Position numbers and translations under genes: made by a program. From the IMG/VR virus record IMGVR_UViG_3300046733_001420, positions 1 through 23,229 of that record: a stretch of 23,229 nucleotides of DNA. One strand, written 5' to 3'. Every line of letters starts with the position of its first letter. The stretch's first letter is position 1. Below, in pieces: positions 387-21,511 of this stretch. The notes under the pieces were generated by a model. It saw only the letters and a list, made by a program, of their open reading frames with translations. It searched no databases and was not told where the DNA came from. The stretch is from a virus.

Positions 387-732
387 TGCGGTTATAGTTA
401 AACCTATCGAAATTGAAGAAACAACTTATGGGAATATTATAGTCCCCGATGTTGGAAAAGAAAAGAATGAAACTGGAGAAGTTATAGCCATAGGACCAGG
501 AAAACCAACAATTACAGGTGATTTTATCCCAACTATACTAAAAGTAGGAGATAAAGTAGTATTACCAACAATGGGATTCACTAAATTACCTTATGATGGA
601 GAAGAATACTATGTTGGCCCCGAAAACCAAATCTTGGCTAAGATTACTGAAACTATAGATGTTGCAGAAATATTAGAAGAAACTAAAGAATCATTAACTA
701 AAGAAGAAATTAAAGATTTATCAAATGAGTAA
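364..732 (+). CDS. groES: GroES-like co-chaperonin
   Basis: This 122-aa protein matches the GroES/Cpn10 fold. It has an N-terminal beta region (residues 6-14, LFDAVIVKP), a mobile loop with a hydrophobic tripeptide (GNIIVPD, about 23-29), the GEVIAIGPG segment, and VGDKVVLP near residues 60-67. GroES caps the GroEL ring and closes the folding chamber in the cytoplasm. The loop style (IIVPD followed by KEK) resembles Bacteroidota GroES. A highly charged C-terminal tail of about 25 residues goes beyond the usual length of about 95. The gene overlaps both its upstream neighbour and groEL, so the pair is made together. In T4 the analogous protein is gp31, which works with host GroEL; here the phage carries both partners. 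Confidence 0.93.
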   Translation: MALEALFDAVIVKPIEIEETTYGNIIVPDVGKEKNETGEVIAIGPGKPTITGDFIPTILKVGDKVVLPTMGFTKLPYDGEEYYVGPENQILAKITETIDVAEILEETKESLTKEEIKDLSNE

Positions 733-2347
733 ACAAGTTATATTAGGTTCAAAAGCTAGAACCAATTTAGTAAAAGGAATTGATATATTAGCAGACGCAG
801 TTGTATCAACCTTAGGACCAAATGGAAGAAATGTAGTAATAGCAAACGAACAAGGAGCCCCTCAATCAACCAAGGATGGAGTTACTGTTGCTAAATCAAT
901 TACATTAAAAGACCCCAATCAAGAATTGGGGGTACAGTTAGTAAAACAAGCTGCAATTAAAACAGCAGAAAAAGCAGGAGATGGTACAACTACTTCTACT
1001 TTATTAGCTAGAGAAATGATAAAAGCAGGATTGAATGCTTTAAACAATAATGAAAATGCAGTACAAATTAAAAGGGATATTGATACTACTGTTAAAGAAG
1101 TAGTAAATAATCTTAAAAATAATATTGCAGAAGATATTTCAGGTGAAGAACAATTAGAACAAATCGCAACGATTTCTGCTAATAATGATCCTGAAACTGG
1201 AAAGTTAATTGCTACCGCAATTGAAAAAGTTGGAATGGAAGGGGTTGTTCATATTGAAGAGTCTAAAACAGGTGAAACGTATTTAGAAACTGTTGAAGGG
1301 TTACAGTTTGATAGAGGGTATAAATCACCTTATTTTGTTACTAATAATAACACAATGACTTCTACATTAGAGAACCCCTTAATTCTAATTGCTGACCAGA
1401 AATTGACCCAAGTAAAAGAGTTATTACCTATTCTAGAAAGTGTATCCACCCAAGCTAGGTCACTTTTAATTATTGCTGAAGATATTGATAATGAAGCTTT
1501 AGCTACTCTTATTGTTAATAAAATGAGAGGTACAATGAAAGTATGTGCTGTAAAAGCACCTGATTTTGGAGATAGACGTAAACTGGTCCTAGAAGATATT
1601 GCCATTACAACTGGAGGTGTAGTTTTTGATAAACAAAAAGGAATGAAACTAGATAAATTTAGTTGGGATTGGTTTGGTGAAGCTCGAACAGTAACAATAG
1701 GAAAAGAACAAACAACAATTGTAGATGGAAAAGGAGGAATTGAACCAATTGAAGCACGTATTGAGGAGTTACAACAACAAGTCAGTAAAGCAACAACGGC
1801 GTTCGAAACAGAAAAACTTCAAGAAAGACTCGCGAAATTCACAGGAGGAGTAGCGATTATTCATGTAGGTGGAAACACTGAAACCGAAATGAAGGAGAAA
1901 AAAGATAGAGTTGATGATGCATTACATGCAACAAAAGCTGCTATTGAAGAAGGAATTGTACCTGGAGGAGGAACAGCATTATTATATGCCTCTTCAGGCT
2001 TAGAAGCTAAGACAACAGGGGCTCAAATTGTAATTGAAGCATGTGCTAAACCATTTAACCAAATTTTAGTTAATGCTGGTTATGATACCATTAAAGGACA
2101 AATTTTAGCAGACCAGTTGGTAAATTCAGGTAATGATACTTGGGCCGGATATAATATTAAAACAGACGAAACAGTAGATATGAAAGAAGCTGGTATTATT
2201 GATCCAACTAAAGTAGCTAGAACAGCACTACAAAACGCAGCATCAGTTGCGGGTACAGTATTACTTACAGAATGTACAGTAGTAAATGAACCAAGTGAAG
2301 ACAACAATCAACCCCAAATGGATCCTTCCATGATGGGTATGATGTAA
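725..2347 (+). CDS. groEL: GroEL-like chaperonin (Cpn60)
   Basis: A full-length 540-aa group I chaperonin. The ATP-binding motif GDGTTT is at residues 85-90, and the catalytic aspartate corresponding to E. coli Asp398 falls at exactly residue 398 in RVDDALHATKAA. The VPGGGTALL segment follows. The tail ends MDPSMMGMM, a short version of the Gly-Met tail of cellular GroEL. The apical, intermediate and equatorial regions all appear intact, so an active ATP-driven folding ring is expected. The start overlaps the end of groES by eight bases. Phage GroEL is much rarer than phage GroES-like proteins. It may serve folding of the capsid or other virion proteins, or replace host GroEL during infection; both are inference. 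Confidence 0.97.
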   Translation: MSKQVILGSKARTNLVKGIDILADAVVSTLGPNGRNVVIANEQGAPQSTKDGVTVAKSITLKDPNQELGVQLVKQAAIKTAEKAGDGTTTSTLLAREMIKAGLNALNNNENAVQIKRDIDTTVKEVVNNLKNNIAEDISGEEQLEQIATISANNDPETGKLIATAIEKVGMEGVVHIEESKTGETYLETVEGLQFDRGYKSPYFVTNNNTMTSTLENPLILIADQKLTQVKELLPILESVSTQARSLLIIAEDIDNEALATLIVNKMRGTMKVCAVKAPDFGDRRKLVLEDIAITTGGVVFDKQKGMKLDKFSWDWFGEARTVTIGKEQTTIVDGKGGIEPIEARIEELQQQVSKATTAFETEKLQERLAKFTGGVAIIHVGGNTETEMKEKKDRVDDALHATKAAIEEGIVPGGGTALLYASSGLEAKTTGAQIVIEACAKPFNQILVNAGYDTIKGQILADQLVNSGNDTWAGYNIKTDETVDMKEAGIIDPTKVARTALQNAASVAGTVLLTECTVVNEPSEDNNQPQMDPSMMGMM

Positions 2348-2378: not shown

Positions 2379-2546
2379 ATGACAAAAAATGAAATCTTTG
2401 AGATTATTGAAACAAATTTCAATATCTTAGCAGCGGAAAATGATGGAACAACTAAAGCAAGTCAAGGACGAGCTCGAAAAGCAGCACAAGCTATCAAACG
2501 TGTGATTACAGATTATAAGAAAGCATCTGTGGCTGAGTCCAAATAA
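2379..2546 (+). CDS. Histone H1/Hc1-like small DNA-binding protein
   Basis: A 55-aa ORF starting at the ATG at 2379 and stopping just before the next promoter-like motif. The C-terminal half (residues about 24-45: TTKASQGRARKAAQAIKRV and onward) has the Lys-Ala/Arg-rich helical pattern of the Bacteroidota histone H1-like Hc1 family, which typically shows KAAGTRxRKAxQDIK in the same place and is of similar length. Such proteins bind DNA nonspecifically. Here it could compact phage DNA or disturb the host nucleoid, by inference. It follows groEL by 31 bases and is probably the last gene of that operon. The family call rests on remembered motif similarity and is moderate. Confidence 0.65.
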   Translation: MTKNEIFEIIETNFNILAAENDGTTKASQGRARKAAQAIKRVITDYKKASVAESK

Positions 2547-2547
2547 T

Positions 2548-2557
2548 TTCGTATATT
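2548..2557 (+). promoter_or_regulatory. Phage promoter-like motif TTCGTATATT, near-leaderless position
   Basis: An exact copy of the recurring motif, placed directly after the stop codon of the Hc1-like gene. Only six bases separate it from the ATG at 2564. If it acts as a -10-like element, the transcript would start at or very near the start codon, giving a leaderless or almost leaderless mRNA. The other copies have leaders of roughly 20 to 42 bases. Confidence 0.58.
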
Positions 2558-2563
2558 ACCACA

Positions 2564-2830
2564 ATGAAAACAGAATTAATTGAAGGTAAAATATTAATTG
2601 CTAATAGAAAGCCACCTGGTGACAGGTGGCAGTTAGCAGATGAACCCGAAGGTAGGATTTACAAAAGTATAACAGATACCTTAGAAGCGTATATGCATAA
2701 AACAGGATTTAAAGGTCACTATCGATTAGAACCTCTAAATAGTAAATTGTATATTATAGAACAACAAGAAATAGAAATTAAACCAGAACCAATTAAAACA
2801 TATAACATATATGGGGAGTTCGGAGAATAG
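2564..2830 (+). CDS. Hypothetical 88-aa protein ahead of the clamp loader
   Basis: No family recognised. The protein is soluble and mixed-charge, probably alpha/beta, with segments such as GKILIANRKPP at the start and KLYIIEQQEIEIKPEP near the end. It is the first gene after the motif at 2548 and overlaps the clamp loader gene by 20 bases, so it is likely translated together with it. Its early codons contain a perfect GC-rich hairpin (2611-2630), which makes the mRNA here at least as interesting as the protein. It could be a replication accessory or mainly a translated regulatory leader. Confidence 0.75.
   Translation: MKTELIEGKILIANRKPPGDRWQLADEPEGRIYKSITDTLEAYMHKTGFKGHYRLEPLNSKLYIIEQQEIEIKPEPIKTYNIYGEFGE
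2598..2639 (+). promoter_or_regulatory. Two-tier RNA hairpin with GTGA (GNRA) tetraloop
   Basis: GCCACCTG (2611-2618) and CAGGTGGC (2623-2630) pair perfectly around the tetraloop GTGA, a GNRA loop. An outer stem TGCTAA (2599-2604) pairs with TTAGCA (2633-2638), and a T-G pair can extend it by one. The two stems are joined by an asymmetric internal loop (TAGAAA on one side, AG on the other). An 8-bp GC-rich perfect stem is unusual in such AT-rich DNA. No T-run follows, so it is not an intrinsic terminator. It starts about 35 bases after the ATG at 2564. A protein-binding translational operator is plausible; this is inference. Confidence 0.5.
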
Positions 2831-3755
2831 CCTATTAGTAGAAAAATATAGACCATCCAAGTTAGAAAACTATGTTGGAAATGAAAATATTAAAAAATCA
2901 ATATCTAAGTATTTAGAACAGAATGATATTTTAAATTTAATATTTTATGGACCCGCTGGTACAGGAAAAACTACTTTGGCAAAACTTTGTGTTCAAAATC
3001 TTGATTGCGATCATCTTTATATCAATGCCTCTGATGAACGAGGGATTGAAACGATTCGTGATAAAGTACAAAGCTTTGCAAGCGTTGCTTCTTTTAAACC
3101 ACTTAAAGTGGTTATTTTGGATGAAGCTGATTTTCTTACCATACAGGCGCAAGCTTCGCTCCGTAATATTATTGAAACTTTCTCACGTACGACAAGGTTT
3201 ATCATGACCTGTAATTTTGTAGAGCGTATTATTGATCCTCTACAATCTAGATGTCAAGTACTTAAAATTGTACCCCCAACTAAAAAAGATGTTGCTAAAC
3301 ATTTAGCTTGGATTTTAAACCAAGAAAGTATAGGTTATAACCCTGAAGATATAAAACTAGTAGTTAATCAATATTATCCTGATTTACGTAAATGTATTAA
3401 TACTTTACAATTAGCTAATGCTAAAGTAGAAGATGAATTACATCCTACAAATTATATGAATGTAATCCGTTTAGATAAATCTACATTAGTATCATCTAAT
3501 TATATAAATAAAGTTATTACTGAATTGAAAGGTAAAGCTGATTTTAAAACAATTCGTCAAATTATAGCTGATGCTAATGTAGATGATTTTGATGAATTAT
3601 TCAGAGCACTATATGAAAGGTCATCTGAATATTTACAAGATAAAGAAGGTACAGCATCTATTTTAATAAATGAACACCAATATAAAGCAAATTTCCGAAT
3701 CGACAAGGAAATAAATACAATGTCGTTAATTCAAAACTTAATAAATAATAAATAA
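2811..3755 (+). CDS. 44: Sliding-clamp loader ATPase (RFC small subunit / T4 gp44-like)
   Basis: A 314-aa AAA+ ATPase of the RFC type. It begins with the family signature VEKYRPSKLENYVGN, then Walker A GPAGTGKT (residues 47-54), Walker B VVILDEAD (100-107), a sensor 1 region (TCN, 133-135) and the SRC arginine-finger motif (146-148), which is diagnostic of clamp loaders. The C-terminal part is the helical collar domain. The complex opens the ring-shaped sliding clamp and loads it at primer-template junctions for the phage DNA polymerase. It overlaps the upstream gene by 20 bases, and the small subunit candidate lies one gene downstream. In T4 genes 44 and 62 are adjacent. The start at 2811 fits the usual N-terminal length of the family. 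Confidence 0.95.
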   Translation: MGSSENSLLVEKYRPSKLENYVGNENIKKSISKYLEQNDILNLIFYGPAGTGKTTLAKLCVQNLDCDHLYINASDERGIETIRDKVQSFASVASFKPLKVVILDEADFLTIQAQASLRNIIETFSRTTRFIMTCNFVERIIDPLQSRCQVLKIVPPTKKDVAKHLAWILNQESIGYNPEDIKLVVNQYYPDLRKCINTLQLANAKVEDELHPTNYMNVIRLDKSTLVSSNYINKVITELKGKADFKTIRQIIADANVDDFDELFRALYERSSEYLQDKEGTASILINEHQYKANFRIDKEINTMSLIQNLINNK

Positions 3756-3757
3756 TT

Positions 3758-4000
3758 ATGGAACAACCAGCTCAACAACCAGCTATTGATTTAAAAAACA
3801 CCACAGAAGTAAAAAATTCAAGTGGTGGGAGTGTATTTTTACAAGGAGTAATTTTACGTAAAGTATCTAAATTTGTTACAGGAACAAATGAAGATGCCTT
3901 AATGCCTATCCCTGTATTTTTTGACCCATCAACTAATAAAATTTTAACAGATTCAGTTCCTAGAGACTTAAGAGAGGAATTAGCTGATGAATTAGTTTAA
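3758..4000 (+). CDS. Hypothetical 80-aa protein between the clamp loader subunits
   Basis: Not recognised. A Gln/Pro-rich start (MEQPAQQPA) leads into a segment with SGGSVFLQGVILRKVSKFV and ends in an acidic helix (DLREELADELV). There are no cysteines and no membrane segment. It begins two bases after the clamp loader stop and its last base is the first base of the next ATG (TAATG), so it is coupled to both. Its position suggests a role in the replisome, for example binding the clamp, clamp loader or polymerase. That is inferred only from location. Confidence 0.8.
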   Translation: MEQPAQQPAIDLKNTTEVKNSSGGSVFLQGVILRKVSKFVTGTNEDALMPIPVFFDPSTNKILTDSVPRDLREELADELV

Positions 4001-4413
4001 TGAAAAGTATCTTTGATTGGTTAAAGTGTATTAATACTACTAAACCTCCTGTCGAGTCATTTTCTGAAAAAGATTGGGAGGTTTGGAATAGTTATATGAT
4101 ACATAGGTTTATTAGCATGAACCCAGATTATATTGAAGTTGTTAATTATGTACAGGATTTCCCCCCACAGGAGAAAAGAATGATATATTCTATTTATAAA
4201 GAATTTATCCCTAAAAATAATAAATGGAATAAATATATTAAATCCAAAACAAAACAACCTAATAAAGACTTAATAGACCATATCAAAAATTACTTCGAAT
4301 GTTCTTCTAAAGAAGCAAAAGAATATATAAATATATTGGCTACCCCCGAAATAAGTCGTATATTAACGAATAAAGGGTTAGATAAAAAAGAAATAAAACC
4401 ATTATTAAAATGA
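4000..4413 (+). CDS. 62: Probable clamp loader small subunit (T4 gp62-like)
   Basis: A 137-aa protein that fits T4-like gp62 by position and pattern. The central segment IPKNNKWNKYIKSK resembles the 'PKgkRygKWiK' region of gp62 proteins. The C-terminal part contains YFECSSKEAKEYINIL, close to the 'YygySxekAkealkIL' helix typical of marine T4-like gp62. gp62 has no ATPase motif of its own and forms the heteropentamer with four gp44 subunits; none is seen here. The stop overlaps the next ATG (ATGA). Sequence conservation in this family is low, so the call leans on context. A search by profile against gp62 would settle it. Confidence 0.7.
   Translation: MKSIFDWLKCINTTKPPVESFSEKDWEVWNSYMIHRFISMNPDYIEVVNYVQDFPPQEKRMIYSIYKEFIPKNNKWNKYIKSKTKQPNKDLIDHIKNYFECSSKEAKEYINILATPEISRILTNKGLDKKEIKPLLK
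4355..4364 (+). promoter_or_regulatory. Possible intragenic promoter-like motif GTCGTATATT (9/10)
   Basis: A one-mismatch copy of TTCGTATATT inside the end of the gp62-like gene, 45 bases before the ATG at 4410. It is followed by AACGAATAAAGG, somewhat like the A/T-rich leaders after the intergenic copies. It may give extra expression of the downstream genes, but a single near-match inside coding sequence can arise by chance. Confidence 0.25.
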
Positions 4414-4640
4414 CAAAAGAATTATACACTATGTTAAAAACATCTGCAGAAGCAGATAAAGCAAAAGCGTTATTATCACTTGAATTATTAGGTAATAAAG
4501 CAGTTGGTATTGGAGATCATTCAACCGAAGATTTTTATAAAAATGCTGAAGAAGCACTTATAAATCTAGTTGATGCTGATGATAGACTTGCAGTATTAAA
4601 TATATACTTTTCAGACAGTAAAGAACAAATCAATGGGTGA
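4410..4640 (+). CDS. Hypothetical 76-aa acidic protein
   Basis: Not recognised. It is mostly helical and acidic, with an Ala/Lys-rich helix (TSAEADKAKALLSLELL) followed by a GIGDHSTEDFYKNAEEAL segment. There is no membrane segment, zinc site or enzyme motif. It overlaps the gp62-like gene by four bases and the Nmad1-like gene by eight, so it sits firmly inside the replication operon. A structural or regulatory accessory is possible; no function can be read from the sequence. Confidence 0.78.
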   Translation: MTKELYTMLKTSAEADKAKALLSLELLGNKAVGIGDHSTEDFYKNAEEALINLVDADDRLAVLNIYFSDSKEQING

Positions 4641-6046: not shown

Positions 6047-6048
6047 TT

Positions 6049-6058
6049 TTCGTATATA
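6049..6058 (+). promoter_or_regulatory. Promoter-like motif TTCGTATATA (9/10) heading the sugar island
   Basis: A one-mismatch copy of the recurring motif, just after the nuclease stop and 33 bases before the ATG at 6092. It is followed by TGTATAC and then CTAAATAA, the same downstream element seen after the copy at 34. It is the only intergenic copy before 17205, so it may drive the whole 11-kb sugar block. Confidence 0.55.
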
Positions 6059-6091
6059 TGTATACCTAAATAATGTTATAAAATAAAGATT

Positions 6092-17200: not shown

Positions 17201-17204
17201 ATCC

Positions 17205-17214
17205 TTCGTATATT
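17205..17214 (+). promoter_or_regulatory. Phage promoter-like motif TTCGTATATT after the sugar island
   Basis: An exact copy of the recurring motif, four bases after the DUF616-like gene stop and 29 bases before the ATG at 17244. It is followed by CCCAC then CTAATTTAAAAAGG, matching the downstream A/T element of other copies. It would begin a new transcription unit. Confidence 0.6.
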
Positions 17215-17243
17215 CCCACCTAATTTAAAAAGGTTATATATTT

Positions 17244-19586: not shown

Positions 19587-19752
19587 ATGGTATGATGCCA
19601 TGAAACTTCCAACACCTCATAGGAATAAGAAAAAATACTATAGAAAAGAAAAACATAAGAAAAATGGGAACCAATTTGGTTCCCATAATTATTTTTCATA
19701 TATTTACAGAGTAAAATTAAGGTTATGGCTCTTTGGGAATTTAGAAATTTAA
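19558..19752 (+). CDS. Small basic protein gene that reads through a terminator
   Basis: A 64-aa ORF overlapping the previous gene by 29 bases and the next by 28. The first 38 residues or so (MKKITLTQHEWYDAMKLPTP and HRNKKKYYRKEKHKK) look like a genuine phage small basic protein. The remainder (NGNQFGSHNYFSYIYRVKL and onward) is encoded by the terminator hairpin, the promoter-like motif at 19695 and the start of the SWIM gene. So the natural end of this gene may have been lost by mutation, or the frame may be extended by chance. N-terminus moderately supported, C-terminus doubtful. Confidence 0.5.
   Translation: MKKITLTQHEWYDAMKLPTPHRNKKKYYRKEKHKKNGNQFGSHNYFSYIYRVKLRLWLFGNLEI
19664..19696 (+). 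terminator. Intrinsic terminator
   Basis: ATGGGAACC (19664-19672) pairs perfectly with GGTTCCCAT (19678-19686) around an AATTT loop, with A-rich DNA before and AATTATTTTT after. This is the clearest intrinsic terminator in the window. It sits just ahead of a promoter-like motif at 19695, so it separates the lysis block from the SWIM/ligase block. Confidence 0.78.
19695..19704 (+). promoter_or_regulatory. Promoter-like motif TTCATATATT (9/10)
   Basis: A one-mismatch copy of TTCGTATATT at the end of the terminator T-run and 20 bases ahead of the ATG at 19725. The leader then runs into TTAAGGTTATGG, similar to the starts at 20175 and 21518. The pairing of terminator and promoter supports a unit boundary here. 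Confidence 0.45.
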
Positions 19753-21440: not shown

Positions 21441-21465
21441 TTAGATTTGGTATATCTAAAAAATA

Positions 21466-21475
21466 TTCGTATATT
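21466..21475 (+). promoter_or_regulatory. Phage promoter-like motif TTCGTATATT after the ligase
   Basis: An exact motif copy in the 77-base gap between the ligase and the next gene, 42 bases before the ATG at 21518. It is followed immediately by a short TAGATAAA tandem repeat rather than the five-base spacer plus CTAAATAA seen elsewhere. Confidence 0.6.
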
Positions 21476-21511
21476 TAGATAAATAGATAAATAGATAAAT
21501 AAATAAATAAA
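21476..21511 (+). repeat. TAGATAAA / TAAA tandem repeat in a 5' leader
   Basis: Three perfect TAGATAAA units (21476-21499) run into three TAAA units (21500-21511), directly between the promoter-like motif and the AAAGGTTATATG start region. Repeats of this kind are prone to slippage and could change leader length. A similar AATAAATAAATAAAGG leader without the G-containing unit precedes the ligase. Confidence 0.8.

Follow-up and report, generated by a model that had tools for sequence, protein, structure and literature searches.

Evidence for a selected mRNA hairpin of changing pairing at the start of a small phage gene ahead of the clamp loader

Regulatory RNA within coding sequence is usually discovered through a conserved sequence or a single conserved fold. 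In the viral DNA analysed here (the window, 23,229 bases), the strongest 60-nt fold of the whole sequence (-23.4; mean -6.2, sd 3.4) falls near the start of a small gene, ORF88. This locus raises the question of whether the hairpin is selected as RNA or follows from the encoded peptide, and of what it may do in the mRNA.

The hairpin and its gene neighbourhood

The region 2590-2650 folds at -22.8 kcal/mol, and none of 200 dinucleotide shuffles is as low (-9.7 ± 2.5, z -5.3). The inner stem pairs 2611-2618 with 2623-2630 in eight perfect pairs around a GTGA loop and is among the window's two strongest perfect short-loop stems. An asymmetric internal loop of 5 nt against 1 nt (2606-2610, AGAAA, opposite 2631, A) separates it from an outer stem. 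The fold confirms the inner stem, its loop and the internal loop as described in the first-pass annotation; the enclosing stem is also present, with a length of 8 bp (six Watson–Crick and two G-U pairs) instead of the 6 bp given there. Elsewhere in the clade of the window, a U-A pair occupies the window's U-G position. The helix has 16 bp with the internal loop, plus three weak pairs.

The hairpin begins 34 nt past the ATG at 2564 and 51 nt from the motif start at 2547, in agreement with the earlier estimates of about 35 and 50. It lies in codons 12-26 of ORF88 (nt 35-76) and thus shares with the betT-type class a stable hairpin placed in the first ~100 nt of the coding sequence. No match to Rfam covariance models is found at gathering score across the whole window, and no slippery heptamer for programmed frameshifting was noticed by eye ahead of the stem. 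An intrinsic terminator, a G+C-rich hairpin followed by a U-run, was considered and rejected, as it had been at first reading: no T-run lies behind the hairpin, the sequence past 2639 being ATGAACCCGAAGG. Elsewhere in the window, at 19664-19686, a perfect 10-bp hairpin (ATGGGAACCAATTTGGTTCCCAT) is followed by an AT-rich stretch with TTATTTTTC; it is terminator-like and lies inside a predicted short ORF.

Table 1. Features of the ORF88 locus in the window; start codons of ORFs are predictions
Feature	Position	Strand	Basis
groEL, upstream gene	725..2347	+	phrog_5725
Small lysine-rich ORF	2379..2546	+	weak Hc1 histone-like match, below Pfam cut-off
Promoter-like motif TTTCGTATATTA, directly before ORF88	2547..2558	+	motif; promoter role putative
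ORF88, conserved small phage protein (88 aa), host gene of the hairpin	2564..2830	+	80 + 71 relatives
Two-tier mRNA hairpin	2598..2639	+	fold prediction; strongest local fold of the window; comparison with relatives
Outer stem, 5' arm, pairing with 2632-2639, two G-U pairs included	2598..2605	+	fold
Inner stem GCCACCTG / CAGGTGGC, GUGA loop 2619-2622	2611..2630	+	fold; encoded by ..PPGDRW..
Outer stem, 3' arm	2632..2639	+	fold
gp44-type clamp loader ATPase, overlapping the ORF88 end	2811..3755	+	phrog_168
gp62-type clamp loader subunit	4000..4413	+	phrog_225; Phage_clamp_A weak
Second early-coding hairpin CTAAACCTCC..GGAGGTTTGG, 40 nt past the gp62 ATG	4040..4086	+	fold; other stems in relatives

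The placement of the hairpin in the gene preceding the clamp loader holds, the end of ORF88 being overlapped by the gp44-type gene of a replication operon (Table 1). The window protein has no match in Pfam, NCBIfam or PHROG. Its AF2 model, of modest confidence (pLDDT 75), matches no solved structure, and no RNA-binding fold is found in it. Relatives of ORF88 occur in environmental viral contigs; the Flavobacterium phages immuto are the only isolated phages found to have one. There the gene (L081 4001-4231) follows queF, upstream of DNA polymerase and groES; gp44 is not adjacent and the hairpin is absent.

The promoter-like motif abuts or overlaps the ORF88 ATG, so that transcription from this point would yield an mRNA that has no leader or is missing the ORF88 start. 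Variants of the motif stand ahead of the ORFs at 66, 6092, 17244 and 21518, with a motif count only slightly above chance. In the form [AT]TTCGTATATT the motif precedes several genes (2547-2558, 33-44, 6048-6059, 17204-17215 and 21465-21476), and in relatives it often lies right behind terminator-like hairpins.

Pairing and protein among relatives

The peptide encoded at the hairpin is ..IANRKPPGDRWQLA.., and PPGDRW with its neighbours could self-complement with no selection on the hairpin. The peptide itself favours pairing, as CCN CCN ... NGN TGG can pair through codon choice, and the GNRA loop is uninformative by itself because the Gly-Asp codons GGN GAY always yield G-N-G-A. Since the codons of PPGDRW (CCN CCN GGN GAY NGN TGG) are pairing-prone, the window hairpin is only moderately unusual, with 4 of 200 synonymous codon shuffles of the same peptide folding as low. 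The test therefore has to come from relatives.

We compared 151 loci, in which the environmental contigs are redundant, and counted the main site in 98 relatives distinct in gp44. At a threshold of z <= -2 against synonymous shuffles with the window's codon usage, the ORF88 site folds well beyond synonymous-codon expectation in 72 of these 98. The result stands with each contig's own codon usage, giving z values of -3.7 for the window-type contig G003 and, in the distant clade, of -8.6, -8.9, -5.2 and -4.9 for G001, G008, G002 and G007, respectively. Nearly every locus of the distant clade has a long multi-tier hairpin at this site, and about twenty of 42 loci have their strongest local fold, over up to ~10 kb, on these ORF88 codons.

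The relatives use at least four different pairings, in which stems, registers and loops (GNRA tetraloop, CCA triloop, AAA triloop and others) differ completely. Type I (e.g. L103) is GNRA-capped and has three tiers with a one-base bulge and an internal loop. Type II (e.g. L122, and also L036 of the window clade) has a shifted register, a triloop and 21 bp, while type III (L071, L105, L106) is a separate hairpin further downstream. Other folds are seen in L067 and in L060-L066, the latter with a hairpin at ~+150. The helices of types I and II reach 20-21 bp with bulges; those of types III-V are shorter than 22 bp.

In the type I set, 33 sequences selected for this very fold, 88.9% of cells are paired (81.4% when shuffled), and Watson–Crick cells amount to 83%, against 48% (maximum 53%) in synonymous shuffles. 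Double-changed cells number 48, against 13 in shuffles; none of 500 shuffles is as high, and slid versions reach at most 18. Type II is 91.4% paired with few double changes. Because type I was selected by fold, a selection-free test weighs more. In all 69 usable relatives with P..RW, not chosen by fold, the third base of Pro and the first base of Arg pair in 44, against 26.6 in shuffles, with none of 5000 as high. A single compensated pair distinguishes L148 from L149 (GTCGCC..GGCGAT to GTCACC..GGTGAT), despite an amino acid change on one side. As the shuffles ignore relatedness, these covariation figures are strong indications and not exact probabilities.

The covariation among relatives that the first-pass annotation had named as a check is thus found, with compensatory double changes in excess of the controls in the type I set, as in a selected RNA secondary structure. 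The opposite pattern that it had considered, a protein kept while the pairing is lost uncompensated, does not hold overall; the hairpin is nonetheless absent from about one lineage in four. A hairpin arising purely from coding would agree with those relatives that retain the protein without it and with the modest excess of the window alone, but it is contradicted by the compensatory synonymous changes, the surplus of Watson–Crick cells, the different folds formed over the same codons and the z scores in the 72 rows. We regard it as scarcely credible; the synonymous shuffles reject a simple codon by-product at the level of the family, though not for the window by itself.

From this comparison we are highly confident that the hairpin is a selected RNA structure, which very probably functions as a control element within the mRNA. 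Since 14 of the 98 rows have neither hairpin nor upstream terminator, the element is dispensable in some phages.

The sense strand of the type I set contains 42 G-U against 5 A-C combinations, compared with 98:47 in synonymous shuffles (P 0.0006, the sequences being non-independent); with types I and II pooled, the binomial P is ~0.002. The stronger depletion of A-C mismatches than of G-U pairs points to sense-strand RNA. The hairpins at the start of gp62, described below, form stronger folds as sense RNA than as antisense (e.g. -23.7 against -17.8). Both the G-U/A-C bias and this strand asymmetry favour a role at the mRNA level. An inverted repeat acting as DNA, be it a protein-binding palindrome, a cruciform or a single-strand hairpin in replication, would suit the near-perfect inverted repeats among many stems and the about equal folding of the two ORF88 strands. 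It does not predict that the sense strand keeps G-U and avoids A-C beyond synonymous expectation, that gp62 stems are better as sense RNA, or that the location is always inside a gene start, and we consider it very unlikely.

Early-coding hairpins in gp62 and other genes

In T4, gp62 is the partner of the gp44 tetramer. The hairpin at the gp62 start recurs in relatives and is unrelated in sequence to that of ORF88; in the distant clade it takes the form GATTGGGACTCCTTCTC..GAGAGGGAGTCCTTTAATC. In both genes the stems start 30-50 nt after the start codon. L018, L026 and L034 are without the early gp62 hairpin and have instead a strong second hairpin over the HRFLSM codons (CATAGATTTTTATCTATG, extended to GGTTCATAGA..TCTATGAACC).

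In 616 ORFs from nine related contigs, the first 240 nt hold strong early-coding folds at ~3-5 times the density of the remainder; these counts are non-independent, since homologous genes recur among the contigs. The enrichment persists when only ORFs of at least 150 codons are counted. Genes with such folds include those for a 5'-3' exonuclease, a PD-(D/E)XK nuclease, QueE and QueD. The control phages immuto and P-TIM40, and weakly T4, are enriched too, and a clade-specific genome-wide system of early hairpins is accordingly not claimed.

Several individual sites were also observed. A 5'-3' exonuclease gene has a very strong hairpin ~235-285 nt in (L158:14445-15482, and G004 27904-28935, L173), with z about -10 and -9 and different bases in the two contigs. 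Small genes with an SDEDL-like peptide (L171:10744-10926; L160:16559-16975; G002 41050) have a strong hairpin whose pairs are changed between contigs. In T4 (L181), gene 62 contains a 20-nt perfect palindrome, GATTGGACAGCTGTCCAATC, at ~+60 to +80 over the codons DW.., a comparable place. With a z of only -2.1 and a heterogeneous picture in 12 other T4-type phages, it is no more than a lead towards conservation of this element in T4 proper.

Possible modes of action

Intrinsic terminators between groEL and ORF88 in related phages (e.g. L016, L044, L049) resemble the hairpin in being strong, G+C-rich and located at the same junction, but they are intergenic and have a T-run, which the in-gene hairpin lacks. 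Such a terminator-like hairpin with a T-run occurs in 12 of the 98 rows and the in-gene hairpin in none of these, compared with 72 of the 86 rows without a terminator; the two are thus found together in 0 of 98 relatives. On the tree, this reduces to ~5 independent contrasts (three with the two features opposed, as expected, and none with them alike; sign test 0.25), so that the mutual exclusion, striking in its counts, is not significant and is suggestive only. The exclusion would be expected if the hairpin paused or attenuated transcription in place of the intergenic terminator. Against this, no U-run follows the window hairpin, ORF88 and gp44 downstream still need to be transcribed, and the phylogenetic support is weak, making such a substitution quite improbable.

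The replication context had also suggested an mRNA operator at first reading. The part of this idea that stands is a selected mRNA structure in a replication operon, as supported by the covariation; an operator for a single RegA- or gp43-type repressor does not stand, given stems, registers and loops that differ between relatives, a GNRA loop forced by Gly-Asp and a location downstream of the AUG. A single conserved operator is rejected on the same differences in fold. In T4-type phages, regA sits after gp62. The ORF directly after gp62 in the window (4410-4640) matches phrog_1811, annotated in PHROG as of unknown function, and by PHROG it is not RegA-like. T4 RegA operators also belong to replication genes of T4-like phages, gene 44 among them, but RegA sites are A+U-rich, without structure and include the AUG (PMC3014915), whereas the ORF88 hairpin is structured, G+C-rich and 34 nt downstream of it. 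The gp43 operator of T4/RB69 is, similarly, an RNA hairpin near the start of a replication gene; it lies ~40 nt upstream of the start codon and has conserved loop bases (PMC3014915), unlike the downstream, intragenic hairpins with loops that vary across the family. A phage repressor dedicated to binding this RNA, whether RegA-like, gp43-like or ORF88 itself acting on its own mRNA, would be consistent with the replication operon, with the use of translational operators by T4 and with the GNRA-capped stem, one-base bulge and internal loop shared by type I folds. That apparently any helix will do speaks against a single repressor reading a specific sequence; together with the absence of loop or stem conservation across lineages and of an RNA-binding fold found for ORF88, this makes a repressor operator improbable.

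The hairpin could instead be a translational speed bump, a helix just past the footprint of the initiating ribosome that would stall the first elongating ribosome, block the start and throttle ORF88 and gp62. The spacing of the stems from the ATG in both genes fits this, as does the density of significant early folds, several-fold higher over the initial 240 nt of long ORFs; any helix would do, consistent with the varied pairings, and the homotetrameric state of T4 gp44 (PMC3012046) points the same way. However, in the account given in PMC8223075, hairpins designed beyond +13 did not change initiation or translation in E. coli (Espah Borujeni 2017). As far as that account goes, structures beyond +13 leave initiation unaffected, which favours a mode other than start blocking. 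Some lineages also carry the hairpin further downstream, and the enrichment in immuto, P-TIM40 and, weakly, T4 may reflect a general feature or, in part, miscalled start sites. On balance we find a speed bump rather unlikely. Should distance from the start codon be important, a role in translation would be no less natural than processing.

Our tentative proposal is that the hairpin is a selected, shape-dependent structure of the sense mRNA that may work at cistron boundaries by way of RNA processing or decay. The closest parallel is E. coli betT, where an RNase III model hairpin spanning coding nt 21-95 controls mRNA stability; proU and bdm are named alongside it (PMC4067347). Like the betT hairpin, that of ORF88 lies in the first ~100 nt of its coding region. 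It differs in that the window helix is shorter, that cleavage is here a proposal, and that the phage element is re-formed with different pairs across the clade and is present in two genes of the operon.

In the proposed mechanism, a hairpin built from synonymous codon choice inside the ORF88 start, with its sequence-unrelated counterpart at the gp62 start, would act as a 16-21 bp helix whenever ribosomes leave it free to close. This helix might be cut by host RNase III or a similar enzyme, or might alternatively form a 3' end that stops exonucleases. In either case it would separate the upstream mRNA (groEL; gp44) from the downstream mRNA (ORF88/gp44; gp62) and so set their relative expression. 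Processing or decay as the step, the enzyme involved and the advantage gained are all conjectural. The quoted minimum helix for RNase III is 22 bp, or two turns (PMC4067347), which speaks against processing for the window helix and types III-V, all of which are below it, while types I and II approach it. Varied pairings that argue against one repressor, the mismatch with RegA and gp43 sites, the reported lack of effect beyond +13 and the betT precedent lead us to rank processing or decay first, as a provisional choice, ahead of the speed bump and with the other modes below.

What is kept at ORF88 is a hairpin at a place, while its pairs, register and loop vary between relatives and the protein remains constant. 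Hairpins of this kind escape Rfam-type searches. More speculatively, and with a probability that we consider low, sequence-independent, start-proximal intragenic hairpins rebuilt from synonymous codons may form a class in this clade, perhaps widely in T4-like phages, that serves as expression insulators at cistron boundaries and replaces terminators. If so, insulator hairpins would stand in for terminators in genomes too compact for intergenic DNA. Natural variants are on offer at the starts of ORF88 and gp62 for studying how structure in early coding sequence controls mRNA and, if confirmed, the hairpins would be a compact phage way to set the relative expression of neighbouring replication genes.
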